From contig JAAFJL010000025.1 of NCBI GenBank assembly GCA_013298865.1, positions 1 to 42,705 on the forward strand: 42,705 bases of DNA, written 5' to 3'. The notes beneath the pieces are model-generated. The model did not search any database and had not been told where the DNA came from. It worked only from the letters and a program-made list of their open reading frames with translations. Below are positions 1 to 37,087 of the stretch, one piece after another; within the stretch, counting starts at the first letter, position 1, and each line of letters opens with the position of its first letter. Source of the DNA: Cytophagales bacterium (GTDB taxonomy: Bacteria; Bacteroidota; Bacteroidia; Cytophagales; Spirosomataceae). A program made the translations under genes and the position numbers.

Positions 1-3000
1 GTTTAGCGTTATTACCAGGGAAAAATGAAGTTGTAGAAACTGTTTTTGATCCAGTAAATGCTTTCCGTGCAGGTGGTGTTCGTTGGTTTGATAATACAAC
101 TGGTGAATCACCGAGAGGGTACGAAATTTTTGGTCAAGATGCTGGTGGACAAGGAGTTACTTTCGGGAAAGCCAATGGTTTAGGAGATTTAGAATTACTC
201 TGTGCGGTACAACCAATCGAGGTTGGGAATCGTATTTGGAATGATTTAGATAGAGACGGAATACAAGATGCAGGCGAACCAGCTTTAGCGAATGTAGTGG
301 TTGAATTGTGGAAAAACGGAGTAAAAGTTTCGGGTACAACCACGTCTTCAACAGGGGAATATTATTTCACTGATTTATTACCAAATATGAATTATGAAAT
401 TCGTATTTTAAATGTGAATGGAGTTTCAAAACAAAATAATTTATTAGGTCTTGAGCCTACTCCGGCAAATGCAAGTGCCAACGGATTTGATAACGTAGAT
501 TCAGATGCAAGTGTTACAGGCTCAAATACTTACGCTGCGATTGCTTTCACAACTGGAAATTACGGAGAAAATAATCACACTTTAGATGCAGGTTTTACTT
601 GTATTAAACCAGTTGCAAATCCTTCTACTACTGCTGTAAAGGTCTGTGAACCAGCAACAACCGTTGACTTGACAGACGCCGCAACTGGTACAGAACCTCA
701 GACTTGGTCGGTACTTGCTACTGGTAATCCATCAACTTCTCAGATTACTTCTTCAACGGGTGTTGTTACGGGTATGACAGGAATAGGGGTTTATAAATAC
801 GTTTTAACTTCAACTTTAACAGGCTGTAAAGACACAATTTCAGTAACAAGAAACGCTCAGCCAAATGCAGGAGCAGACCAAAAGGTTTGTACTCCTACGC
901 AAACAGCACAATTAGTGGCGGCTTCTACGGGAGAAATTTGGTCAGCACAAGCAGGAAATCCATCGAATGCAACGGTAATTAATGCAGGAAACGTAGCAGG
1001 AATGACATCAATAGGTGGATATTTCTTCATCCTGACTGATGCCAATGCTTGTAAAGATACAGTAGAAGTTTTAAGAGTTGAAAGACCTAATGCAGGTGCA
1101 GACATCACTGTTTGTTCGCCAACGCAAACGGCAACTTTAACAGCAGCCAATACAATTTTGGGTCAATCATGGGCGGCTTCAAACAGTAATCCTGCTTTGG
1201 CAACTATCAATAATGCAGGAAATGTAGCAGGAATGACCGTTGACGGAGTTTATACATTTGGTTTAACACAAAACGGATGTACTGATTCTGTGAAAATTAC
1301 TCGCCAAACTGGTGGAGTAGTAAACGCTTTAGGAAGTATAGTTTGTGCAGGACAAAATTGGAATTTATCAACTTCAACAATTGCTGCTTCTTACATGTGG
1401 ACGGGTCCAAGTGGATTTACTTCAACACTGAAAAATCCTTCGATAACAAACGCAACTATCAATAATGCAGGAACTTACACATTAGTAGCAAATTTTGCGG
1501 CAGGTTGTACGGCATCTGCAACGGCTACGGTAGTTGTAAATCTAAGTCCAACAGCAACAGCGACTAATAATTCTCCATTCTGTTCGGGGTCAGAATTAAA
1601 ATTGACCGCAACTGGCGGTGGAAATTATGCTTGGGCAGGACCTTCAGGATTTGTGGCAACGACCAGTAATCCTTCAATTCCAAATGCCTCGGCGTCATTT
1701 TCGGGAACTTACTCAGTTTTAGTAACCAATGCCGCAGGGTGTACAGCAACGGCTACAACAGTGGTTGTGATTAATCCAACTCCTGCGGTAAATGCCATAA
1801 GTAATAGCCCAATTTGTACAGGTGCAGAAATTAAATTGACAGCAGCTGGTGGTGGAAGTTATTTGTGGACAGGTCCAGCCAATTTCACAAGTACGGTGTC
1901 AAGTATAACTTTAAATGCTAATCCTGATTTAACCCAAGCAGGAATTTATACAGTAAAAGTGACGAACCAATCTGGTTGTACTGCAATGGCAACAACCAGC
2001 GTAGTTGTAGAGAAATGTTTGAAATTAGGAGATTTGGTATGGAATGATGCCAATAATAATGGTAAAAAAGATGTGGCAGAAGTTGGCATTCCTACTGTAA
2101 CAGTTAATTTATACAAAGATGCCAATGCTGACGGTATTCCAGATGGAGCATCAGTAGCAACAACCACTACGGATGCCAACGGAAAGTACTTGTTTATAAA
2201 CTTAGACCCAGACAAATACATCGTAGAAATTGTAGCTCCAACAGGATATAAATCATCGACAGGTACAAATGGAGCAGCAACTGGACCAAATGAAGGACCA
2301 GCGACCCCAGGCGACAACGATGTCAATGATGACGACAATGGAACGGGTAGTCCAATAAGAAGTAAAACCATCACGTTGACCAACTTCGGAGAATCAATCA
2401 TAGACGGTGATGCCGACAATAATTCAAACCTAACAGTTGATTTTGGTTTGTTCATTCCTGCAAGTTTAGGAAGCACAGTTTGGAACGATACCAACAACGA
2501 CGGTATCAAAGACCCAACTGAAAATGGAATTGATAATGTAACTGTCAAATTATTGGACGGAGCAGGCAATGTTGTAGCAACTACTCAGACAAATCCAAGT
2601 GGAGTTTATAGTTTTGATAATTTGATTCCAGGCACTTATGTAGTAGAATTCGTAAAATCAACGCTACCAGCAGGTTTTGAATTCTCTCAAAAAGACCAAG
2701 GTGGCAACGACACAAAAGATAGTGATGTCGACCCAACAACTGGGAAAACAGACCCAATAACGTTAACAGTAGGACAACAAAAAACGGATGTATTTGCAGG
2801 TGCAAGTCTCGTTTGTACGAAACCAGTTGTGCAAGTAACAGCAACAAGTCCAAGATGTGAAGGTTCAAATGTTCAACTAACAGTTTCGGGCGGAGGTTCA
2901 TATTTGTGGACAGGTCCTGCAGGCTTTACTTCAACAGTGAGTAATCCTTCGTTTCCTTTAGCAAGTGTTTCAAATTCAGGAACTTATACGGTAACTGTAA

Positions 3001-6000
3001 CTTCTTCAGGCACTTGTATCGCAACAGCACAGGCAACAATTGCAGTAATTATCAACGCAGTTCCGACGGTAACAGCAGTAGGTTCAACAGTTTGTTCTGG
3101 AGGAAATATTCAACTAACAGCAACTTCAAGTGGCTCAATTCTTTACGCATGGACAGGACCAGGTGCTTTTGCCAGCACACTTTCTAATCCTCAGATTGCC
3201 AACGCAACAGTAAGTAATTCAGGAGTTTATACGGTAAAAGTTACCAATCCAAACGGATGTACAGCCAACGCAACGGCACAAGTAACAGTCGGAGCATCGC
3301 TTTCGGTAACGGCAACAAGTAATAGTCCAGTTTGTGTAGGGAAAGATTTAACCCTAAGTTCAAACGGAGGTGCAGGAGCAACTTACGCTTGGACTGGTCC
3401 AAATAACTTTGTATCAACCGCCGCAGCCGTAACAATTTCCCAAGCACAAGTAAATGCCACTGGTATTTATTCAGTAAAAGTTACCAACACAGACGGATGC
3501 ACAGGCACAGCAACAACCGCAGTAATTGTAAATCCAGTACCAACAACTGCCCCTGTAAGTGCGGAAGTTTGTCAGGGAGGAAATGTAACAATAACAATGA
3601 TTGGTGGAGTCGGATATTCATGGACAGGTCCAAATAATTTCACGGCAACAACATCAGAAGTAACCCTCACGAATGTAACGCCAGCTAATGCAGGGGCTTA
3701 CACGGTAGTAGTTTCAAATGTAAATCAGTGTACATCAACCGCTTTAGCAAATGTGATTGTAAACCCAAGTCCAACGGTTAGTGCAACAGGAGCAACAGTT
3801 TGCACAGGCGGAACACTTCAGCTTTCAGCATCAAGTGTAGCAGGAGCAACGTACGCTTGGGTAGGACCTAACAATTTTACAAGTACAGCTAAAAGTCCAA
3901 CGATTGCCAACGCAACTATCTCTAATGCAGGAACTTACGGGTTAATAGTAACAGATTTGAAAGGTTGTAAAGCTACGGCAACGGCAGCAGTAACAGTCGG
4001 GGCATCGCTTTCGGTAACGGCAACAAGTAATAGTCCAGTTTGTGTAGGGAAAGATTTAACCCTAAGTTCAAACGGAGGTGCAGGAGCAACTTACGCTTGG
4101 ACTGGTCCAAATAACTTTGTATCAACTGCCGCAAACGTAACAATTTCCCAAGCACAAGTAAATGCCACTGGTGTTTATTCAGTAAAAGTTACCAACACAG
4201 ACGGATGTACAGGAACAGCGACCACAGCAGTAATTGTAAATCCAGTACCAACAACTGCCCCTGTAAGTGCGGAAGTTTGTCAGGGAGGAAATGTAACAAT
4301 AACGATGATTGGTGGAGTCGGATATTCATGGACAGGTCCAAATAATTTCACGGCAACAACATCGGAAGTAACCCTCACGAATGTAACGCCAGCTAATGCA
4401 GGAGCTTACACAGTGGTAGTTTCAAATGTAAATCAGTGTACATCAACGGCTTTGGCAAATGTGATTGTAAACCCAAGTCCAACGGTTAGTGCAACAGGAG
4501 CAACAGTTTGCACAGGCGGAACATTGCAACTAACAGCATCAAGTGTAGCAGGAGCAACGTACGCTTGGGTAGGACCAAACAGTTTCACAAGTACAGCTAA
4601 AAGTCCAACGATTGCCAATGCAACTATCTCTAATGCAGGAACTTACGGGTTAATAGTAACAGATTTGAAAGGTTGTAAAGCTACGGCAACGGCAGCAGTA
4701 ACAGTCGGGGCATCGCTTTCGGTAACGGCAACAAGTAATAGTCCAGTTTGTGTAGGGAAAGATTTAACCCTAAGTTCAAACGGAGGTGCAGGAGCAACTT
4801 ACGCTTGGACTGGTCCAAATAACTTTGTATCAACTGCCGCAAACGTAACAATTTCCCAAGCACAAGTAAATGCCAATGGTGTTTATTCAGTAAAAGTTAC
4901 CAACACAGACGGATGCACAGGCACAGCAACAACAGCAGTAATTGTGAGTCCAGCACCAACAACTGCTCCAGTGAGTGCGGAGGTTTGTCAGGGAGGAAAT
5001 GTAACAATAACGTTTACGGGTGGAGTCGGATATTCATGGACAGGTCCAAATAATTTCACGGCAACAACATCAGAAGTAACGCTCACGAATGTAACACCAG
5101 CGAATGCAGGGGCTTACACGGTAGTAGTTTCAAATGTAAATCAGTGTACATCAACCGCTTTAGCAAATGTGATTGTAAACCCAAGTCCAACGGTTAGTGC
5201 AACAGGAGCAGTAGCTTGTACAGGTGGAAAACTCCAATTGACAGCATCCAGTGTAGCAGGAGCAACGTACGCTTGGGTAGGACCCAACAATTTTACAAGT
5301 ACAGCTAAAAGCCCACTAATTACAAACGCAACAGTTTTAAATTCAGGAACTTACGGAGTATTAGTAACAGATTTGAAAGGTTGCAAAGCTACCGCAAACG
5401 CAACGGCATCTGTAACCCCAAAATTGAATGGGGGCAACGATGTAACAATCTGTGACCCAATTACAAGTGCAAAAATCACGGTGGTAGCAGGAGCAACTTG
5501 GACACCAGAAGCGACTAATCCTAAACCTTTAACCATCAACCAAGCTACGGGAGACGTTACAGGAATGACAGTAAATGGAATTTATGTCTTGTATCTTTCA
5601 AATGGTGATTGTAGCGACACAATTAGTATTTTCAGAAATCAGAAATTAGATGCAGGTGGCGACCAAGTGTTATGTTCTCCGAAATCGACAACAAAATTAT
5701 TAGCCACAACAACTGGACAAACCTGGTCATCGCCAACAGTACCAGCAGGAGCAACTGTTTTGATTGATGCTCAGGGAAATGTAACAGGAATGTCGGTTGA
5801 TGGAATTTATAAATTTGTTTTAACACAAAACGGAAATCCATCATGTACAGATACCGTAATGGTAACACGTGCAGCCGCACCAAACGCAGGAACAGACCAG
5901 ACAGGAAATTCGGGAATATGCGAGGCTATCCAAATTGCCAAATTGCAAGCTGCAACAGCTACCCAAACGTGGACAGTTGCTGCAACTGGAAATCCAGCAG

Positions 6001-7154
6001 TAGCTACGATTGACCAGAATGGAAATGTAGCTAAAATGACTGTAAACGGGGTTTATGTCTTTATTTTGAAACAAGGAGATTGTGCTGATTCAGTGAAAAT
6101 TGAAAGAAAAGCCAAGCCAGTTGCAGGAGATGATATTAAAATTTGTGAGCCTCTGACAACTGCTAAAGTGAAGGCAACAACAGCAGGACAAACTTGGACA
6201 CCAGCAGCAGGAAATCCAGCAAATGCAACAGTAAATGCCAACGGTGAGATTACAGGTTTAACTGTTAATGGAATTTATCAATTTGTCTTCACAGCAAACG
6301 GTTGTACAGATACATTGAATGTTGAAAGAGTTGGAATACCAAATGCAGGACCTGATTTAGTAGGAAACAAAGCAATTTGTGAGCCTTCGGAATTGGCAAA
6401 ATTACCAACCCCAATTGCAGGTTCAACTTGGTCAGTAGCACCAGGAAATCCTGCAAATGCTACAATAAATGCCACTGGAGAAATTGCTAAAATGACAGTA
6501 AATGGAATTTATACTTTCATATTGAAAAATGCTAATGGTTGCGTTGATTCGGTAAAAGTAGAACGTTCGGCAAGTCCAAAAGCAGGAGCAGATACTACAA
6601 TTTGTGGTGACGTTTCAGTAATAAAATTGAAAAATGCTCCACAAAACCAAGCATGGTCGGCTGCAGCAGGTAATCCAACTTCGGCAACGATAAATCCAGT
6701 AACAGGAGAAGTAATCGGGATGACTACCAATGGTGTTTACAAATTTGTCCTTAACTCGCTTGCAGGATGTACCGATACCTTGAAAGTTGAAAGATTACCT
6801 TTACCAATATTTGATGCCGCAACCGAACAAGCAAGTTGTACAGGTTCAACTCCTGCTGACGATGCCAAATTAGTATTGACCAATTTCGGAACAGGCAATA
6901 GATATGATTATTCAGAAGGCATAACTTATTCAGGAACAAAGACTTATGCAACCGCAACGGCAATCCCAGCAACTGGAATTATTGCCAATAACTTAGTAAA
7001 CCCGACAGCAGCAAAGACTTATACAGTAAGAGTATTTAATGCTAATGGTTGTTATTTAGACAAAACAGTAATCTTGAATCCAAGAATTTGTGAGTGTAAA
7101 CCAGACGTTTGTGCGCCTTATGTAGCCTTGAAAACGAAAAGTGGCAAGCCATAA
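1..7154 (+). CDS. Giant surface adhesin-like protein, SdrD-B and Ig-like repeats (5' partial)
   Basis: The frame is open from base 3 with no start in the window, so the N-terminus lies upstream; about 2383 residues are visible. SdrD-B-like domains (VGNRIWND, LGDLVWND, LGSTVWND starts, each with a G.Y.F..L.PG.Y pattern) lie near bases 214-600, 2020-2450 and 2455-2810. Between and after them are about 14 Ig/PKD-like modules of roughly 77-80 residues with a Y.WTGP core and paired cysteines (about 1311-2015 and 2815-5410), and nine modules of roughly 62-80 residues with AG.D, C.P, W, GM..NG.Y and C.D.(V/L).V.R (three at about 610-1310, six at 5425-6800). The Cys-rich tail ends in CECKPDVCAPY. I see neither a type A nor a type B T9SS C-terminal domain, so the export and anchoring route is unclear. 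The protein is probably an extracellular adhesin or matrix component; the substrate is unknown. Confidence 0.85.
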   Translation, partial: LALLPGKNEVVETVFDPVNAFRAGGVRWFDNTTGESPRGYEIFGQDAGGQGVTFGKANGLGDLELLCAVQPIEVGNRIWNDLDRDGIQDAGEPALANVVVELWKNGVKVSGTTTSSTGEYYFTDLLPNMNYEIRILNVNGVSKQNNLLGLEPTPANASANGFDNVDSDASVTGSNTYAAIAFTTGNYGENNHTLDAGFTCIKPVANPSTTAVKVCEPATTVDLTDAATGTEPQTWSVLATGNPSTSQITSSTGVVTGMTGIGVYKYVLTSTLTGCKDTISVTRNAQPNAGADQKVCTPTQTAQLVAASTGEIWSAQAGNPSNATVINAGNVAGMTSIGGYFFILTDANACKDTVEVLRVERPNAGADITVCSPTQTATLTAANTILGQSWAASNSNPALATINNAGNVAGMTVDGVYTFGLTQNGCTDSVKITRQTGGVVNALGSIVCAGQNWNLSTSTIAASYMWTGPSGFTSTLKNPSITNATINNAGTYTLVANFAAGCTASATATVVVNLSPTATATNNSPFCSGSELKLTATGGGNYAWAGPSGFVATTSNPSIPNASASFSGTYSVLVTNAAGCTATATTVVVINPTPAVNAISNSPICTGAEIKLTAAGGGSYLWTGPANFTSTVSSITLNANPDLTQAGIYTVKVTNQSGCTAMATTSVVVEKCLKLGDLVWNDANNNGKKDVAEVGIPTVTVNLYKDANADGIPDGASVATTTTDANGKYLFINLDPDKYIVEIVAPTGYKSSTGTNGAATGPNEGPATPGDNDVNDDDNGTGSPIRSKTITLTNFGESIIDGDADNNSNLTVDFGLFIPASLGSTVWNDTNNDGIKDPTENGIDNVTVKLLDGAGNVVATTQTNPSGVYSFDNLIPGTYVVEFVKSTLPAGFEFSQKDQGGNDTKDSDVDPTTGKTDPITLTVGQQKTDVFAGASLVCTKPVVQVTATSPRCEGSNVQLTVSGGGSYLWTGPAGFTSTVSNPSFPLASVSNSGTYTVTVTSSGTCIATAQATIAVIINAVPTVTAVGSTVCSGGNIQLTATSSGSILYAWTGPGAFASTLSNPQIANATVSNSGVYTVKVTNPNGCTANATAQVTVGASLSVTATSNSPVCVGKDLTLSSNGGAGATYAWTGPNNFVSTAAAVTISQAQVNATGIYSVKVTNTDGCTGTATTAVIVNPVPTTAPVSAEVCQGGNVTITMIGGVGYSWTGPNNFTATTSEVTLTNVTPANAGAYTVVVSNVNQCTSTALANVIVNPSPTVSATGATVCTGGTLQLSASSVAGATYAWVGPNNFTSTAKSPTIANATISNAGTYGLIVTDLKGCKATATAAVTVGASLSVTATSNSPVCVGKDLTLSSNGGAGATYAWTGPNNFVSTAANVTISQAQVNATGVYSVKVTNTDGCTGTATTAVIVNPVPTTAPVSAEVCQGGNVTITMIGGVGYSWTGPNNFTATTSEVTLTNVTPANAGAYTVVVSNVNQCTSTALANVIVNPSPTVSATGATVCTGGTLQLTASSVAGATYAWVGPNSFTSTAKSPTIANATISNAGTYGLIVTDLKGCKATATAAVTVGASLSVTATSNSPVCVGKDLTLSSNGGAGATYAWTGPNNFVSTAANVTISQAQVNANGVYSVKVTNTDGCTGTATTAVIVSPAPTTAPVSAEVCQGGNVTITFTGGVGYSWTGPNNFTATTSEVTLTNVTPANAGAYTVVVSNVNQCTSTALANVIVNPSPTVSATGAVACTGGKLQLTASSVAGATYAWVGPNNFTSTAKSPLITNATVLNSGTYGVLVTDLKGCKATANATASVTPKLNGGNDVTICDPITSAKITVVAGATWTPEATNPKPLTINQATGDVTGMTVNGIYVLYLSNGDCSDTISIFRNQKLDAGGDQVLCSPKSTTKLLATTTGQTWSSPTVPAGATVLIDAQGNVTGMSVDGIYKFVLTQNGNPSCTDTVMVTRAAAPNAGTDQTGNSGICEAIQIAKLQAATATQTWTVAATGNPAVATIDQNGNVAKMTVNGVYVFILKQGDCADSVKIERKAKPVAGDDIKICEPLTTAKVKATTAGQTWTPAAGNPANATVNANGEITGLTVNGIYQFVFTANGCTDTLNVERVGIPNAGPDLVGNKAICEPSELAKLPTPIAGSTWSVAPGNPANATINATGEIAKMTVNGIYTFILKNANGCVDSVKVERSASPKAGADTTICGDVSVIKLKNAPQNQAWSAAAGNPTSATINPVTGEVIGMTTNGVYKFVLNSLAGCTDTLKVERLPLPIFDAATEQASCTGSTPADDAKLVLTNFGTGNRYDYSEGITYSGTKTYATATAIPATGIIANNLVNPTAAKTYTVRVFNANGCYLDKTVILNPRICECKPDVCAPYVALKTKSGKP
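3282..5411 (+). repeat. Three tandem 708-bp coding repeats
   Basis: Units begin at 3282, 3990 and 4698 (each at GTAACAGTCGG); the spacing is exactly 708 bp, or 236 codons. The third ends near 5411 with about 6 extra bases. Each unit encodes three Ig-like modules (about 79, 77 and 80 residues). Long stretches are identical at the DNA level, including synonymous sites, so the copies are recent or kept alike by gene conversion. The number of copies could change by recombination without breaking the frame. Confidence 0.93.
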
Positions 7155-19037: not shown

Positions 19038-19943
19038 TTATTTCTTGACCTCCGTCAATTCCTCATAAGCAGACAATAAACCTCGCCCGATTCCGTCGCC
19101 TTTCCATTCTGTTACGCCAGGAATTGAGGTTGATTTTAGGATTTCTTCTTTGGCTTTGCCAGCTTTTACTTCTGAGTCAACGAAGAGTAATAATTTTTCT
19201 AAATAATCTTTAAAAGCCTTGATGTCCTCTTTATTTCCTGTGATTTTCTCAGGGTCAAAAGCGTGACCAAAGACAAAAATTGTTTCATTGTCAAAAGTAC
19301 TGAGGGTTTTATCTAAGACTTTTATCCAACTATCAATATTTGCCCCAGCAGACCTGTCCACAAAAGGATAACGACGATTGAAAAGCAAATCTCCTAAATG
19401 GGCAACATTGGCATTCTCGAAATGTATAATTGAATCCCCATTGGTATGACCAGCACCAAAATAATATGCCTTGATTCGCTCCTTTCCTACTTTTTGTTTC
19501 CAAGTATCCGTAAAAGTTACATCTGGATACAATTGTTTTTCCTCACTTTTTTGCTTTACAGCAGACGCTTTCTGATTCAGCAGAGAGTTTTGATGAGCAA
19601 CTACGTGTTCAACCAAGCCTTTGAAAGAAATATTTCCAGCCGTGTGGTCGCCGTGATGATGGGTATTGATGAGGAGTTTAAAAGGACTGGTTGATAACTT
19701 TTTCAACTCATCAATTAAGTGCTGAGATTGTTCTTGAAATTGAGAATCAACCACGACTAAACCTTTGGGCGTTTGCAGAAAAGCAATTGTTCCGCCTTTC
19801 TCAGAAAACACACTGACACCACCCCGTAACTCCTTGATTTTATAAGGGTTATCAGTAACTGACTTTGCCCATAAACCACTCGGTAAAAGACTAAAAGCCC
19901 CAAAAGTTAAGGCTGAGTTTTGAATAAAATTTCTACGATTCAT
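19038..19943 (-). CDS. Exported MBL-fold metallo-hydrolase
   Basis: The 301-residue protein has an N-terminal NRRNFIQNSALTFGAFSLLP stretch, a twin-arginine-type or Sec signal. The metallo-beta-lactamase fold is shown by NTHHHGDHTAG (ligands His95, His97, Asp99, His100), GAGHTNGDS (His166), HLGDLLFN (Asp185) and VFGHAF (His227), so a dinuclear zinc site is complete. The spacing is that of the broad class of periplasmic MBL hydrolases and B-type lactamase relatives; the substrate is not evident, and resistance should not be assumed. Its start region and leader form the left copy of a 41-bp direct repeat; it probably once followed the TMEM175-like gene directly. Confidence 0.88.
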   Translation of the reverse strand: MNRRNFIQNSALTFGAFSLLPSGLWAKSVTDNPYKIKELRGGVSVFSEKGGTIAFLQTPKGLVVVDSQFQEQSQHLIDELKKLSTSPFKLLINTHHHGDHTAGNISFKGLVEHVVAHQNSLLNQKASAVKQKSEEKQLYPDVTFTDTWKQKVGKERIKAYYFGAGHTNGDSIIHFENANVAHLGDLLFNRRYPFVDRSAGANIDSWIKVLDKTLSTFDNETIFVFGHAFDPEKITGNKEDIKAFKDYLEKLLLFVDSEVKAGKAKEEILKSTSIPGVTEWKGDGIGRGLLSAYEELTEVKK

Positions 19944-19957
19944 GGGGTTGGGGGATT
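19917..19957. repeat. Left 41-bp direct repeat of the XisHI cassette
   Basis: It is identical in 40 of 41 bases to 21523-21563. It covers the first nine codons of the MBL gene (MNRRNFIQN) and its leader GGTTGGGGGATT. Because this copy belongs to the intact gene, the other copy is the remnant. Confidence 0.92.
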
Positions 19958-20087
19958 GATGAAATTTGATAGAGATACAGAAATGAGAAATTCGATTATT
20001 TGTTAGTCATTTTTGTAGGTAAGTATGAACTTGACAGTATCAGAATTAAGTTATTATTATATTTGCTAAAGATTTGGATAGGTTGTA

Positions 20088-20795
20088 CTAACACCCCATC
20101 GCCATTTCAAAAATAATTGTTTTCAAGATTTTTTTTCCTGTTTTTTTATCAATACCTGAAATTTTGATAAAGTAGTGGCTAATCATTACAGTACCAAAAG
20201 GGTATTTATTGTCCAAATAAGATAGCCATTCCTTATGATTTTCAGTTTCAATGATTTCGTTTTTAACATCTTCTAAAGTAACTTCAGGAAAAAGAGTTTG
20301 TTCAGATTCTGAGTAGCTCAAACATTTATAATTGTTGTCATTACTGATTTTATTTATTGTTTTCCAGTCGGATTGATAATGTTTCCAATCTATTAAGTCA
20401 AGATGAGGTCCCTCACCTTGTATTGACATGCTGGTCATATATGATTGTTCAATCTTTATATCATTTATAATCTTAGAGTATTTTAGCGAGAATGTTTGTT
20501 GTTGTAAATCGTCTCCTAAGTCAATAAAAACTGTAATACTATCCCCATTAATATTCTGCAATTGCCCTACATCATCTTTTTCATAATCCCATAATTTTAA
20601 ACTGTCAAAAATAACTTCTATTTCAGCAAATTTAAGATGAAGTACTTGACTGCTATCAATATTCTTTTTGATTGTTTGCGTTTTTGTAATGGAGTATGTA
20701 TCCGCTAAAGCTTTCTGTGATACAGGTTTTGTTTCATTACAACAAAGTGTAAATGAAAGAATGAAAAAACTAAAAATTAAACGCATATATCTCAT
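20088..20795 (-). CDS. Hypothetical lipoprotein-like protein
   Basis: The 235-residue protein starts with MRYMRLIFSFFILSFTLCCNE, a hydrophobic segment ending in two cysteines that could serve as a lipobox, although the position before Cys is not ideal. The mature part is rich in charged residues and alternating strands (VFIDLGDDLQQQTFSLKYSK, EIETENHKEWLSYLDNKYPFGTVMISHYFIKISG). No family is recognised. Internal Met4 is an alternative start. It lies 69 bases downstream of xisI on the same strand, within the direct-repeat-bounded cassette, and so is likely cargo of the insertion. Confidence 0.7.
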   Translation of the reverse strand: MRYMRLIFSFFILSFTLCCNETKPVSQKALADTYSITKTQTIKKNIDSSQVLHLKFAEIEVIFDSLKLWDYEKDDVGQLQNINGDSITVFIDLGDDLQQQTFSLKYSKIINDIKIEQSYMTSMSIQGEGPHLDLIDWKHYQSDWKTINKISNDNNYKCLSYSESEQTLFPEVTLEDVKNEIIETENHKEWLSYLDNKYPFGTVMISHYFIKISGIDKKTGKKILKTIIFEMAMGC

Positions 20796-20864
20796 TCTCC
20801 AACTAATTATAACTAATATTCCTGAGACTGAAAGTCAGTAAAATCTATAATAATAATAAACCAT

Positions 20865-21203
20865 TTAAGCCATCGCAAATCCAGAAATCTCCCTCATGTA
20901 TGGTGCATGAAAACCTAAAACAAGGTCTTCTTTCGGTACGCCAGCATCTAACAATAATTGAGCTACAGGTATATCAGTAACATCGTGTTGTACCCAAATT
21001 TTATCGTTTCGGATGTCAAAATGAAAAACGCAATAATGAACTCTTCTGCGGTTTTCAAATCCCACCCGCACTAACTGATAACTATCCCTAAGCGTATCAA
21101 CAATTATTTCATTTTCTACGTCTGGGAGATTGGCTGGCGTTATTTTAGCATATTTTTCTAAAATATTGGTAATAATATTGCGGTAATTTTCTATTTTATC
21201 CAT
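20865..21203 (-). CDS. xisI: XisI family protein
   Basis: The full-length 112-residue protein closely follows the XisI pattern: MDKIENYRNIITNILEKYA at the start, then YQLVRVGFENRRRVHYCVFHFDIRNDKIWVQHDVTD, AQLLLDAGVPKEDLVLGFHAP and a short tail. XisI and XisH were named as factors needed for excision of the fdxN element in Anabaena, yet the families are widespread without any such element and their biochemical role is not settled. The start overlaps the end of xisH by 13 bases (21191-21203), so the two are translated together. Confidence 0.92.
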   Translation of the reverse strand: MDKIENYRNIITNILEKYAKITPANLPDVENEIIVDTLRDSYQLVRVGFENRRRVHYCVFHFDIRNDKIWVQHDVTDIPVAQLLLDAGVPKEDLVLGFHAPYMREISGFAMA

Positions 21204-21421
21204 TTTACAACAGTATTTAAGTCTGGATTAACAACGATAATTTTCATGTTTATTTCCTTTATAACCATCTGAGGAAAAGGAAGTTCAAAAACCTCTTCAT
21301 AGACGTTATCCGTTATGCCTACGTACAAAATTCTTTCAGGTTCTTTTGTCTTCAAAGCAATTCGATAATCAATGAATTGCCCCACAGCTAAATGAAAATC
21401 ATATACCTTTGATCTTGCCAT
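21191..21421 (-). CDS. xisH: XisH family protein, N-terminally truncated
   Basis: The 76 residues match only the C-terminal half of XisH (about 135-140 residues): KVYDFHLAVGQFIDYRIALKTKEPER, ILYVGITDNVYEEVFELPFPQ, and IIVVNPDLNTVVKWIK. The missing front half normally carries the conserved PD-(D/E)XK-type residues, including the V-E-I-K-S element just before the segment retained here. No trace of it is seen in the 100 bases upstream, which instead hold a TAAATTTG box about 22 bases before the ATG. The gene is therefore a remnant or a naturally shortened partner of XisI. Confidence 0.8.
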   Translation of the reverse strand: MARSKVYDFHLAVGQFIDYRIALKTKEPERILYVGITDNVYEEVFELPFPQMVIKEINMKIIVVNPDLNTVVKWIK

Positions 21422-21522
21422 TATGGATTTAATTTTATTTTCACAAATTTAACCACAATTTTAAGTTGTTACTATCCGTGTAGCATAATTCCAAAGGAAT
21501 CTTAGCTTCTTTATTCTATTAT

Positions 21523-21563
21523 GTTTTGAATAAAATTTCTACGATTCATGGGATTGGGGGATT
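21523..21563. repeat. Right 41-bp direct repeat of the XisHI cassette
   Basis: It matches 19917-19957 with one difference. On the minus strand it follows the TMEM175-like stop codon and restarts as ATG plus the codons MNRRNFIQN, then runs into unrelated sequence: a broken second start of the MBL gene. Confidence 0.92.
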
Positions 21564-22137
21564 AATTTTTTACAATTTTCTCAATATTCTTATCAGGAAT
21601 CAGCCAAGTAATTGCTACTAACACAAAAATTGCACAAGAAACCAAAGGTAAAAAGTAGGCTATTATTGTAGCGATTGAATATAAAATAAGTGATACTAAT
21701 TCTTTACGTCTATTACTGAGTACTTTTTTTAAAAAAGAATCTTCATCGTGTATTTTCAATAAACTTTTGGTTAAAATTGAATACGCAAACCCTGACATAA
21801 AAGCTACTATTGAGTAACATAAAACGGGTAAAGCCGCAAAATGTGATGTTCCCATCCATCCCGAAACAAAGGGAAGGAGCGATATCCAAAATAACAAATG
21901 ACCATTTGCCCACAATACTTTCCCATTGACGTGTCTGACTACTTGAAACAAATGATGATGATTATTCCAGTAAATCATGACGAAGACAAAACTCAGGATA
22001 TAACTCAGGAAAATGTCCAAAACAGGACGTAAATCTACAAAATTGGCACCCTTTGGCACTTTCATTTCTAATACCATGATTGTGACAATAATGGCTAAAA
22101 CACCATCACTAAATGCTTCTAATCGGTTTTTTGTCAT
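21562..22137 (-). CDS. TMEM175/DUF1211 family putative potassium channel
   Basis: The 191-residue membrane protein has about six predicted helices. The start MTKNRLEAFSDGVLAIIVTIMVLEMKVP carries the family motif R...FSDG (Arg5, Phe9-Ser10-Asp11), and YWNNHHHLF is the second conserved stretch. Bacterial TMEM175 proteins assemble as tetramers of one six-helix repeat and conduct K+ with low selectivity. It lies 46 bases downstream of the CotH/LTD gene on the same strand. Its stop codon (21562-21564) lies at the edge of the right 41-bp repeat. Confidence 0.88.
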   Translation of the reverse strand: MTKNRLEAFSDGVLAIIVTIMVLEMKVPKGANFVDLRPVLDIFLSYILSFVFVMIYWNNHHHLFQVVRHVNGKVLWANGHLLFWISLLPFVSGWMGTSHFAALPVLCYSIVAFMSGFAYSILTKSLLKIHDEDSFLKKVLSNRRKELVSLILYSIATIIAYFLPLVSCAIFVLVAITWLIPDKNIEKIVKN

Positions 22138-33926: not shown

Positions 33927-34027
33927 GATTGATATTGATTAAATGGTAAAATTTGTGGTAGTCTTACTAAAGTCATTTTTTTCTTTCCCGAAGATGAAAA
34001 AATTGCTTAAACCCTCAAACAATTACC

Positions 34028-35539
34028 ATGAAAAACTCATTAACGCTTCTTGTTATCTTGTTGCTGACCGTGATGTCATGTAGCAAACAATTAGAAATCA
34101 TTCCCGAAAAAGCTGTGGTCTTTGTTCAAACTCAGACGGGTACGCCCATCGGAGGAATGGTCAATGCCACCATCACCGCTAATGGTGGAACAGCCATTTT
34201 GCCCTCTGTTGGCGTAAAAGTAGTCGTTCCCGCAGGGGCAATGACCACAGACTCTCAACTCAGCATTCAACAAGTCAGTAATATACTAAATTCCAATGAA
34301 AAAGCCATCAGAATATCAGGTGATTGGATAAAACCTATTTCGATAGAATATCAATTAACAGACTCAGAATCAGGAAATTACAATATCTTCGTGGGTATGC
34401 CTACGGGCGTATGGGTAGGTGCAAAAAAGGCTAAGGTTTCAGGTAATACGATGTCTGTCAGACTCGGACCAAATTCAGGTCCTGACATCAAAGGAGGGCG
34501 AGTAGCTGCCAAAACGTATGATTTAGCCTTTGCAAAATTCTTCACAATGAAACCTGAAAGAGTAGTCTTAGATTTGGGTAAAACCCAACAATTTGTAGCG
34601 TATGCCAAAGAAGGTTTTATCCCTCGAAAACACGTCAATGGTTCTTTAATTACAAGCGAGAGTGAGTTAAATTCCTACCTGAAAAAACTTGATGAAATAG
34701 ATGCTCCACCGAATACAGACGATGAACTCGTCCCCTTAGCCCCTTCCAGAAATGCTACTGCCGACGATGAACTCGTCCCCATAGCGGTTTATGCCAAAGA
34801 ATATCCTTTCTCAAACACCAAAGAAGGCTATACTCGTTTATGGAAAATCAATCAAGGCGTAGGTTCAGTCAATAGCAACGGACTTTACACAGCACCCAAC
34901 GATGAGGCATCAAAAGGTAAAACTGCCGAAGTCTGGTTTTTGAGTCAGAATAATAAAAATACCGCTCAAAATCTTGTGGTGGGGGCAAATATCAGAATTA
35001 ATGATGGGTTAGTTAGGTATTCAGGAACAATAACTATGAAGGAAAAAATACTTAACGCCTTGGGAGAAAGTATTGAAACTTCCTATTCGTCAAAGGTTAT
35101 TCTGACAAATAGTTTAAATTTAAGTACCAATTATACTACTGGTGTCAAAGTTGGAACAAGTACAGTTCATAATATTAGCACAGTCGTAGAGTTATTTTCT
35201 TCAACGAGTAAAGATGGCAAATATACGGTTAACTTAGCTGGTTCTTGTTCGACAGAAGGTACGAAGGCTGGTAATGTAAGCCTCAATGTCTATCCTGAAA
35301 AAAAATATTATTCTTTTGACGGTTTTCTAACAAATGAAACGAATCAATGCCAAGTCGATATTTTTTGCGATGGTTGCTTTCCCAAAAATAGAACTGAAAA
35401 AAGATTGTTTTATGGAGATTTATTTTTTGATATTCCTCAGCATCCTTATAACGGAGAAAAAACACTTTCTGGAAGTTTTACCCAAACTCGGCTTGGGGGA
35501 ATAACGGCTATCGTAACATGGAATTTAGTAAAAGAATAA
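34028..35539 (+). CDS. Lipoprotein with ZU5-like and Big-like modules, copy 1
   Basis: The 503-residue protein has a lipoprotein signal, MKNSLTLLVILLLTVMSC (Cys18). Near residues 50-90 the pattern GGTAILPSVGVKVVVPAGAM resembles a ZU5-like strand motif; residues about 270-295 (LWKINQGVGSVNSNGLYTAP) look like a bacterial Ig-like (Big) module. A small repeat, DDELVP(L/I)A, occurs twice around residues 235-260. The last 170 residues carry CQVDIFCDGCFPKNRTE. The first 983 bases are almost the same as in the next gene; the 3' part is not. No function is known; a surface lipoprotein is likely. Confidence 0.78.
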   Translation: MKNSLTLLVILLLTVMSCSKQLEIIPEKAVVFVQTQTGTPIGGMVNATITANGGTAILPSVGVKVVVPAGAMTTDSQLSIQQVSNILNSNEKAIRISGDWIKPISIEYQLTDSESGNYNIFVGMPTGVWVGAKKAKVSGNTMSVRLGPNSGPDIKGGRVAAKTYDLAFAKFFTMKPERVVLDLGKTQQFVAYAKEGFIPRKHVNGSLITSESELNSYLKKLDEIDAPPNTDDELVPLAPSRNATADDELVPIAVYAKEYPFSNTKEGYTRLWKINQGVGSVNSNGLYTAPNDEASKGKTAEVWFLSQNNKNTAQNLVVGANIRINDGLVRYSGTITMKEKILNALGESIETSYSSKVILTNSLNLSTNYTTGVKVGTSTVHNISTVVELFSSTSKDGKYTVNLAGSCSTEGTKAGNVSLNVYPEKKYYSFDGFLTNETNQCQVDIFCDGCFPKNRTEKRLFYGDLFFDIPQHPYNGEKTLSGSFTQTRLGGITAIVTWNLVKE

Positions 35540-35565
35540 TATCAAAACTCTTGCCCCATGAAAAA
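35518..35565 (+). repeat. Junction repeat, copy 1
   Basis: Covers the last codons of the first lipoprotein gene, its stop, the 18-base gap and the start of the next gene. It recurs at 37172-37220 with one extra A, in front of the head-repeat protein gene. Confidence 0.88.
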
Positions 35566-37087
35566 CTCATTAACGCTTCTTGTTATCTTGTTGCTGACCG
35601 TGATGTCATGTAGTAAACAATTAGAAATTACTCCCGAAAAAGCTGTGGTTTTTGTTCAAACTCAGACGGGTACGCCCATCGGAGGAATGGTCAATACCAC
35701 CATCACCGCTACTGGTGGAACAGCCATTTTGCCCTCTGTTGGCGTAAAAGTAATCGTTCCCGCAGGAGCAATGCCCACAGGCTCACAACTCAGCATTCAA
35801 CAAGTCAGTAATATACTAAATTCCAATGAAAAAGCCATCAGAATATCAGGTGATTGGATAAAACCTATTTCGATAGAATATCAATTAACCAATTCAGAAT
35901 CAGGGAATTACAATGTTTTCGTGAGTATACCTATGGGTGTATGGGTAGGAGCGAAAAAGGCTAAGGTTTCAGGTAATACGATGTCTGTCAGACTCGGACC
36001 AAATTCAGGTCCTGACATCAAAGGAGGGCGAGTAGCTGCCAAAACGTACGATTTAGCTTTTGCAAAATTCTTCACCATAAAACCTGATAGAGTAGCTTTG
36101 GATTTGGGCAAAACCCAACAATTTGTAGCGTATGCCAAAGAAGGTTTTGTTCCACGAAAGCACGTCAATGGTTCTTTAATTACAAGCGAGAGTGAGTTAA
36201 ATTCCTACCTGAAAAAACTTGATGAAATAGATGCTTCCGTTGCTTCTGACGATGATTTAGTGCCATTAGCTCCTCCTAAAAATGCTACTGCCGACGATGA
36301 ACTAGTCCCCATAGCGGTTTATGCCAAAGAATATCCTTTCTCAAACACCAAGGAGGGCTATACTCGTTTATGGAAAATCAATCAAGGCGTAGGTTCAGTC
36401 AATAGTAATGGACTTTACACAGCACCAAGCGATGAAGCATCAAAAGGTAAAACTGCCGAAGTCTGGTTTTTGAGTCAGAATAATAAAAATACCGCTCAAA
36501 ATCTTGTGGTGGGGGCAAATATCAGAATTAATGATGGTTTACAACGATATGAAGGTACTGTAAAAGTAACCAATGTACTTGTTTCAAAAGAATCAAATAA
36601 TGTTACACGTACTCGTACAATCGTATTGTCCGCTAAAATTACCCTTATCAATTCGACAGGCGTTCCGTGGGCATATAAGCATGAGGCTAATCCTAAAAGT
36701 ACTATTAAAACAACAGTTGATGACTATTTAGAAATTACGAGTGATGGAGAAGTGAAAATTCAATTTACGGGAGACCGCTCGAAAACGACTGATGGAGGGC
36801 TTTGGTACTTAGATTTTGAGAAAGATTATAAAACCTACAAAATGGATGGTTCGATTGATGGACTTTGTGCGACATCAGTTTATTGTAAAAGATGTTCTCC
36901 TCAAAACTCCACTGAAAATGACCGTTTTGCCAGTAGTGATTTTGCGACTGGATATAATTTCAAACAAACGCCTGTCCAGACGGTCACAAACTTAGATGTC
37001 ATCACAGGTAAATTAGTTACGAATACCAAAGTCAGTAATTCAGATTTGACTATCACGAGCGAGTGGAATTTTAAATTGGTCAAATAA
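35558..37087 (+). CDS. Lipoprotein with ZU5-like and Big-like modules, copy 2 with different C-terminus
   Basis: The 509-residue paralogue of the upstream gene has the same signal (VMSC lipobox) and the same first 328 residues or so with few changes; bases 35558-36540 align to 34028-35010 without gaps. After NIRINDGL the sequences part abruptly. The tail here has CATSVYCKRCSPQNSTEND where copy 1 has CQVDIFCDGCFPKNRTEKR, so the tails share a C..C.P.N.TE frame and are distant relatives. It lies 18 bases after copy 1 and is probably in the same transcript. The function is unknown. Confidence 0.78.
   Translation: MKNSLTLLVILLLTVMSCSKQLEITPEKAVVFVQTQTGTPIGGMVNTTITATGGTAILPSVGVKVIVPAGAMPTGSQLSIQQVSNILNSNEKAIRISGDWIKPISIEYQLTNSESGNYNVFVSIPMGVWVGAKKAKVSGNTMSVRLGPNSGPDIKGGRVAAKTYDLAFAKFFTIKPDRVALDLGKTQQFVAYAKEGFVPRKHVNGSLITSESELNSYLKKLDEIDASVASDDDLVPLAPPKNATADDELVPIAVYAKEYPFSNTKEGYTRLWKINQGVGSVNSNGLYTAPSDEASKGKTAEVWFLSQNNKNTAQNLVVGANIRINDGLQRYEGTVKVTNVLVSKESNNVTRTRTIVLSAKITLINSTGVPWAYKHEANPKSTIKTTVDDYLEITSDGEVKIQFTGDRSKTTDGGLWYLDFEKDYKTYKMDGSIDGLCATSVYCKRCSPQNSTENDRFASSDFATGYNFKQTPVQTVTNLDVITGKLVTNTKVSNSDLTITSEWNFKLVK

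Follow-up and report, generated by a model that had tools for sequence, protein, structure and literature searches.

XisH-XisI Gene Pairs at Conserved Gene Ends Between Long Direct Repeats in Spirosomataceae

Introduction

In bacteria of the family Spirosomataceae (Cytophagales), gene pairs coding for XisH and XisI (XisHI) are found recurrently at the ends of conserved genes, between long direct repeats of variable length that copy the gene end. The window, i.e., the whole stretch of 42,705 nucleotides analyzed here (contig JAAFJL010000025.1 of assembly GCA_013298865.1), contains one of these insertions: DNA carrying xisH and xisI is inserted at the 5′ end of a gene encoding a metallo-β-lactamase-fold (MBL) hydrolase, with duplication of 41 bp of the target. 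By analogy, XisHI would behave like a mobile gene cassette of the restriction-modification type. Both protein families are abundant in cyanobacteria and present in several other phyla, and to our knowledge no function has been established for them beyond helping one recombinase. The long duplications of gene ends would identify XisHI as a cassette that moves independently and is probably selfish or defensive, and the defined insertion sites open its mobility, excision, and toxicity to testing.

The 41-bp Duplication at the MBL Gene

The features of the locus are given in Table 1. The two 41-bp copies are identical at 40 of 41 positions (42 of 44 when extended), and a scan of the 5.69-Mb genome allowing up to three mismatches found this sequence at these two places only; the reversed pattern, used as a control, had zero matches in the whole genome. 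Exactly 1565 bp lie between the copies. Along the minus strand, the TMEM175 stop codon is followed by the right copy, by the 1565-bp insert, and by the left copy, which is the start of the MBL gene. The left copy contains the ATG of MBL (19943, minus strand) with 14 bp of leader, and in the right copy, which overlaps the TMEM175 stop codon, the MBL sequence gives way to foreign sequence after codon 9. Thanks to the duplication, neither the MBL gene nor its leader was damaged, and once the insert and one copy are taken out, the MBL start lies about a dozen bases from the TMEM175 stop. An earlier note on this DNA had described repeats that copy the MBL start, of which the left copy alone continues as a gene, enclosing 1565 bases with a lipoprotein, XisI, and a short XisH, and had read them as the trace of an insertion with a 41-bp target duplication; taking out one copy plus the insert would restore a close TMEM175-MBL pair. 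These claims are borne out by the repeat comparison, by the open reading frames and profile matches of the insert, and by a repeat that is unique in the genome and has foreign DNA between its copies.

Table 1. Features of the TMEM175-MBL locus, with positions counted from the first base of the window.
Positions	Strand	Feature	Evidence
19038–19943	-	Target gene: MBL hydrolase, 301 aa, MNRRNF leader	PF00753, E 5.5e-14; relatives
19917–19957	-	Left 41-bp copy: MBL leader and first codons, continues as gene	
19958–20087	.	Non-coding insert end, no assigned origin	
20088–20795	-	Lipoprotein-like ORF, 235 aa; passenger, not constant in XisHI units	
20865–21203	-	xisI, 112 aa, intact	95.5% identical to XisI of G041 (L132)
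21191–21421	-	xisH, 76 aa; residues 1–3 and 65–137 of a 137-aa homologue remain	
21422–21440	-	Spacer, M61 stop to xisH start	Length about as in G041
21441–21515	-	Final ~24 codons, with stop, of an Arcicella-type M61 peptidase gene; relic of the donor locus	NKEAKIPLELCYTDSNNLKLWLNL*
21523–21563	-	Right 41-bp copy: target duplication, stops after MBL codon 9, overlaps TMEM175 stop	
21562–22137	-	TMEM175-family channel, 191 aa	MBL neighbor in six genomes of another genus

The window genome is the sole representative of its genus in the genome collection, and for this reason its empty site is visible only in distant relatives. The MBL gene occurs in 46 other genomes of the family (222 genomes), and 41 related loci were retrieved. 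Neither XisI nor XisH lies near MBL at any family MBL locus with flanks read, and no XisI was found near MBL at the 41 related loci, so that XisHI has not always lain between these genes. Six genomes, all of one other genus, have TMEM175 and MBL side by side and uninterrupted, ~140 bp apart, and no comparable repeat lies between them; no relative devoid of XisHI was found to carry a second copy. The nearest of these empty pairs is distant (MBL ~58% identical at the protein level). Since the pair stands without insert in these six genomes, the insertion is private to the window genome, as far as sampled.

Content and Origin of the Insert

Along the minus strand, the insert consists of the tail of an M61 peptidase gene, xisH, xisI, and the lipoprotein-like ORF. 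Two of its features had been missed in the earlier note, namely the M61 tail and the internal deletion to which XisH owes its shortness. XisI matches PF08869 over its full length and above cut-off (positions 1–110 of 110, E 6.7e-41), and the lipoprotein-like ORF matches no Pfam, NCBIfam, or PADLOC family. The 1565-bp insert has no terminal inverted repeats; its genes include no transposase, no recombinase (the XisF serine recombinase included), and no DNA methyltransferase, XisH being accompanied by XisI alone. A three-gene unit made of the lipoprotein, XisI, and XisH, which had been proposed as the mobile block, to be looked for elsewhere with other flanking repeats, is ruled out: the lipoprotein is present in 3 of the 222 family genomes and lies away from XisI in the other two, and elsewhere the repeats hug XisH-XisI alone.

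The XisH of the window matches PF08814 at profile positions 64–133 of 134 only and, compared with the 137-aa XisH of G041, an Arcicella relative, has lost 61 codons in frame. XisH is assigned to the PD-(D/E)XK nucleases in an excerpt of PMC4853749, and the residues D38, E57, and K59, invariant in 67 full-length XisH of the family, fit the D...ExK signature of these nucleases. All three lie within the 61 deleted codons; the invariant D and ExK of the nuclease core are absent from the window XisH, which would for this reason be expected to have no nuclease activity. The XisHI copy in the window is probably decaying, and the deletion of the nuclease core may have occurred later than the insertion or together with it.

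In G041, the locus (L132) has the order M61 peptidase, xisH, xisI, and toxin-antitoxin pair. The shared part of XisH is 98.6% identical between G041 and the window, where XisI is similarly close (Table 1). Between the two genomes, dS amounts to 0.67–0.88 for XisHI, versus 1.65 for TMEM175, 2.1 for MBL, and saturation for M61; because the XisHI values are far below the others, XisHI was transferred after the two lineages split. Furthermore, translation of the window sequence adjacent to xisH gives NKEAKIPLELCYTDSNNLKLWLNL, the counterpart of NEEGKIHLEIMDAENENLKLWLNL at the end of the Arcicella M61 protein; the insert therefore began inside the end of a donor's M61 gene. Sequence comparison thereby shows a foreign, horizontally acquired XisHI part of the insert. 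The genome's own M61 locus is ruled out as the source: that gene, found on another contig, has a different end, and the tail in the insert is Arcicella-type. Other Arcicella genomes possess M61 with no XisHI behind it, and flanking repeats were sought at the M61-XisHI locus of G041, the nearest relative of the donor, with none found. The M61 protein of G041 (L132:3964–5433) contains stretches such as SIPPSPRERGTGGEV and NSPLSRRGVGGEV at places where the sequence of the G044 protein is different, as though palindromic repeats had entered the coding gene in frame.

XisHI Units Between Direct Repeats Across the Family

XisI is encoded by 45 of the 222 family genomes, often in multiple copies, and nearly all of the loci were examined. 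A first comparison of flanks revealed direct repeats of 56–122 bp at seven XisHI loci; in the control, which compared upstream and downstream flanks from different loci, the maximum score was 16. A tight test, in which one copy ends at most 160 bp before xisH and the other starts at most 130 bp after xisI with a score of at least 24, detected direct repeats of 37–135 bp at 17 of 97 XisHI units, versus 2 of 3522 random placements with identical geometry and loci (Fisher p 7e-26, a nominal value because the 97 loci include some orthologous sites). This control gauges background repeats, not other mobile cassettes, for which the survey of PIN-domain loci described below, with its different geometry and threshold, is the sole comparison. 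Thirteen of the 17 units are left when L134, L170, L196, and L212, whose repeats are possibly dispersed, local, or terminator repeats, are set aside. The window was detected by a looser test; it is not counted among the 17, as its repeats also enclose the lipoprotein. About four fifths of the XisHI loci have no repeat, which may result from decay, deletion, or another insertion route.

The geometry observed in the window recurs at unrelated loci, including in single-contig genomes. Placing the duplication-bearing loci on a tree of 96 XisI proteins takes no fewer than 11 separate changes on branches with good support, so many insertion events are involved, with the qualification that the alignment is short, has few columns, and shows the duplication label somewhat clustered. 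The suggestion that XisHI travels as a discrete unit thus holds at the scale of the family, given the excess of tight repeats over random placements and the single-copy empty sites of relatives.

Most repeats correspond to host-gene ends (Table 2), and in those cases the intact gene survives on one side. For instance, the unit at the cysS site starts at the ATG of XisH, which shares bases with the cysS stop codon, and ends at the XisI stop codon, the final bases of which belong to the second copy. The cysS end is filled by XisHI in G112 and G114, and there is no XisHI behind cysS in G111 and G113. In front of the radical-SAM gene, XisHI is found at 3 of the 30 Spirosoma loci read, the other 27 being empty, and G208, the closest to the filled G190, has a single radical-SAM copy in its native context. 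The three insertions at this site differ in their boundaries, as independent events might, but XisHI (76–79% identity) has diverged nearly as far as the gene (80–81%). At both of these sites, which are those that were checked, relatives keep a single copy. An additional locus, L225 in G110, has XisHI at the cysS end used in G112 and G114 with an undetectable second copy, either through copy decay or through a different history.

Table 2. Host-gene ends duplicated on either side of XisHI units.
Gene	Duplicated end	Repeat length
AcrB-type transporter (acrB)	3′	135 bp
UvrB (uvrB)	3′	126 bp
CysS (cysS)	3′	80 and 84 bp in two species
Epimerase (gene on opposite strand)	3′	74, 74, 39 bp
GH63-type hydrolase	3′	64–78 bp
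PolA (polA)	3′	37 plus 30 bp
RelA/SpoT (relA/spoT)	3′	37 bp
Radical-SAM gene	5′	57, 64 bp, and one decayed copy

Outside the family, 20 XisI loci of other Cytophagales families include one clear tight case (L319, 71 bp), the others having loose or dispersed repeats, and 22 plasmid XisHI loci (21 cyanobacterial, one from Chloroflexi) yielded no clear long duplication and one doubtful 27-bp case. Some of the cyanobacterial plasmid pairs (L280, L282, and L279) are located among defence genes: XisHI lies between DISARM drmA and a DNA methyltransferase in L282, and adjoins a putative restriction enzyme gene in L280. Within the family, PIN-domain toxin loci have long flanking direct repeats of 42–227 bp in 4 cases out of 70 (L352, L359, L361, and L378), which suggests that toxin-antitoxin genes of the family also insert with long target duplications. 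Moreover, a PIN-domain toxin-antitoxin pair and an XisHI pair at L184:2793–4469 are set apart by three copies of the end of a GH63-type hydrolase gene; apparently this place received two insertions in succession, each with long target duplication. Both observations indicate that this mode of insertion is not exclusive to XisHI.

Mechanism of Insertion

We consider it likely that acquired xisH-xisI DNA was inserted with duplication of the target, that this is a recurrent mode relying on illegitimate joining, and that the pair persists for selfish or defensive reasons. We infer the joining mechanism as follows. The DNA would be joined into a break by illegitimate recombination, the two joins being offset by tens of bases; an offset in one direction would duplicate the target, and an offset in the other direction would delete it. 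Selection would remove deletions that hit the end of a gene such as cysS or polA, and duplications would therefore stand out at such ends. The pair, i.e., a nuclease-like XisH with its partner XisI, may then persist as a selfish or defensive unit.

Two other routes can be envisaged, each with a small chance of being correct. On the one hand, XisHI could be a minimal element that moves by itself, the XisH nuclease making or widening a break at selected gene ends, the pair being copied into that break with the long duplication as a result, and XisI directing or restraining XisH; this is rather unlikely, and were it the case, a selfish nuclease pair would have been put to use as excision factor in Nostoc only late. 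On the other hand, an incoming XisHI already located beside the same gene end could enter by homologous recombination on one side and illegitimate recombination on the other. This one-sided homologous route, which we find similarly doubtful, would also yield repeats of gene ends and could explain why the cysS, radical-SAM, and epimerase sites are reused across species. However, the XisH side of the window insert carries M61 sequence unrelated to the site, and both copies in the window keep the leader abutting the TMEM175 stop. Besides, the two copies within one genome are mostly 93–100% identical, and the second copy therefore need not derive from another species.

Site-specific integration, in which the repeats would be att sites of an element targeting gene ends and XisHI either its remnant or a passenger moved by a recombinase acting in trans, is improbable. 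Targets at gene ends, with the gene restored by a direct repeat some tens of bases long, do resemble att sites, and an excerpt of PMC4853749 presents XisH and XisI as factors that assist the serine recombinase XisF of the fdxN element. Nevertheless, the inserts contain no recombinase gene, and the targets and repeat sequences all differ, so that many integrases would be needed. The ends of the units are not fixed either, repeat-bearing units leaving 0–129 bp beside XisH and up to 107 bp beside XisI, and this variation between loci speaks against an element with defined termini.

A similar objection applies to classical transposition of a non-autonomous unit with unusually long target duplications. 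A few insertion sequences, of the IS1634/IS1549 type, have variable, long target duplications, but the window insert has no terminal inverted repeats, no transposase and no constant ends were found, and the unit at the cysS site is made up of coding sequence that starts with the XisH ATG and ends with the XisI stop, which makes such transposition very improbable. Finally, chance, an assembly artefact, or an old tandem duplication without insertion can practically be dismissed: the contig is one of 302 in a draft genome, yet a 40/41 repeat encloses foreign DNA and the same geometry recurs at unrelated loci, in single-contig genomes as well.

Relation to Known Systems

Insertion by illegitimate joining with target duplication, the reading preferred above, has a precedent in restriction-modification genes, whose insertion is accompanied by long duplications of the target (Nobusato et al., 2000; Furuta et al., 2010; summarized in excerpts of PMC1643837, PMC3031569, and PMC3874152). 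As described in these excerpts, restriction-modification insertions are small cassettes that lack a transposase, are flanked by long, variable target repeats (on the order of 100 bp), are polymorphic between relatives, and are horizontally transferred, all of which is reminiscent of XisHI. The repeats measure 41 bp in the window and 37–135 bp at the 17 of 97 units; single-copy empty sites are found at cysS and the radical-SAM gene, and as distant empty pairs only for the window; and transposase and terminal inverted repeats are lacking. The resemblance extends to the nuclease, full-length XisH having the D...ExK residues of the PD-(D/E)XK kind. Unlike restriction-modification insertions, the cargo is XisHI with no methyltransferase, none being found in the window insert, and the host belongs to Bacteroidota. 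In the open-access literature, as far as titles, abstracts, and excerpts tell, "long target duplication" in bacteria refers to restriction-modification genes (PMC1643837, PMC3031569), and no title or abstract reports XisHI insertion with target duplication. The kind of insertion is already known, and the XisHI cargo family and the Bacteroidota host group appear new for it.

The fdxN element of Nostoc/Anabaena shares the same two protein families (PF08814 and PF08869), for which the closest solved structures are 2inb/2okf and 3d7q/2nlv. Unlike in the fdxN element, there is neither XisF nor a larger element to excise, the window insert containing no recombinase with site-specific repeats, and the pair itself is what has been inserted; also unlike the fdxN XisH, that of the window lacks the catalytic core. 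The PIN-domain (VapBC-type) pairs of the same family resemble XisHI in lying between long direct repeats, and differ from it in their proteins, in the lower frequency of repeats, and in the looser test by which these were scored. Transposed plant genes are likewise non-transposon genes with flanking direct repeats of over 30 bp matching the empty target site, in eukaryotes and in a different repair setting (PMC2869330). Taken with the PIN-domain toxin-antitoxin pairs, XisHI suggests that the long-target-duplication mode may reach past restriction-modification genes.

Other Repeats in the Window

Two further sets of repeated sequences are present in the window. At 34026–37087, two adjacent lipoprotein-like genes (503 and 509 aa) have N-terminal parts that are 96% identical over the first 300 bp and C-terminal parts that have diverged. 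At 3144–4859, three direct repeats with a period of 708 bp lie within an ORF of 2285 aa (297–7154).
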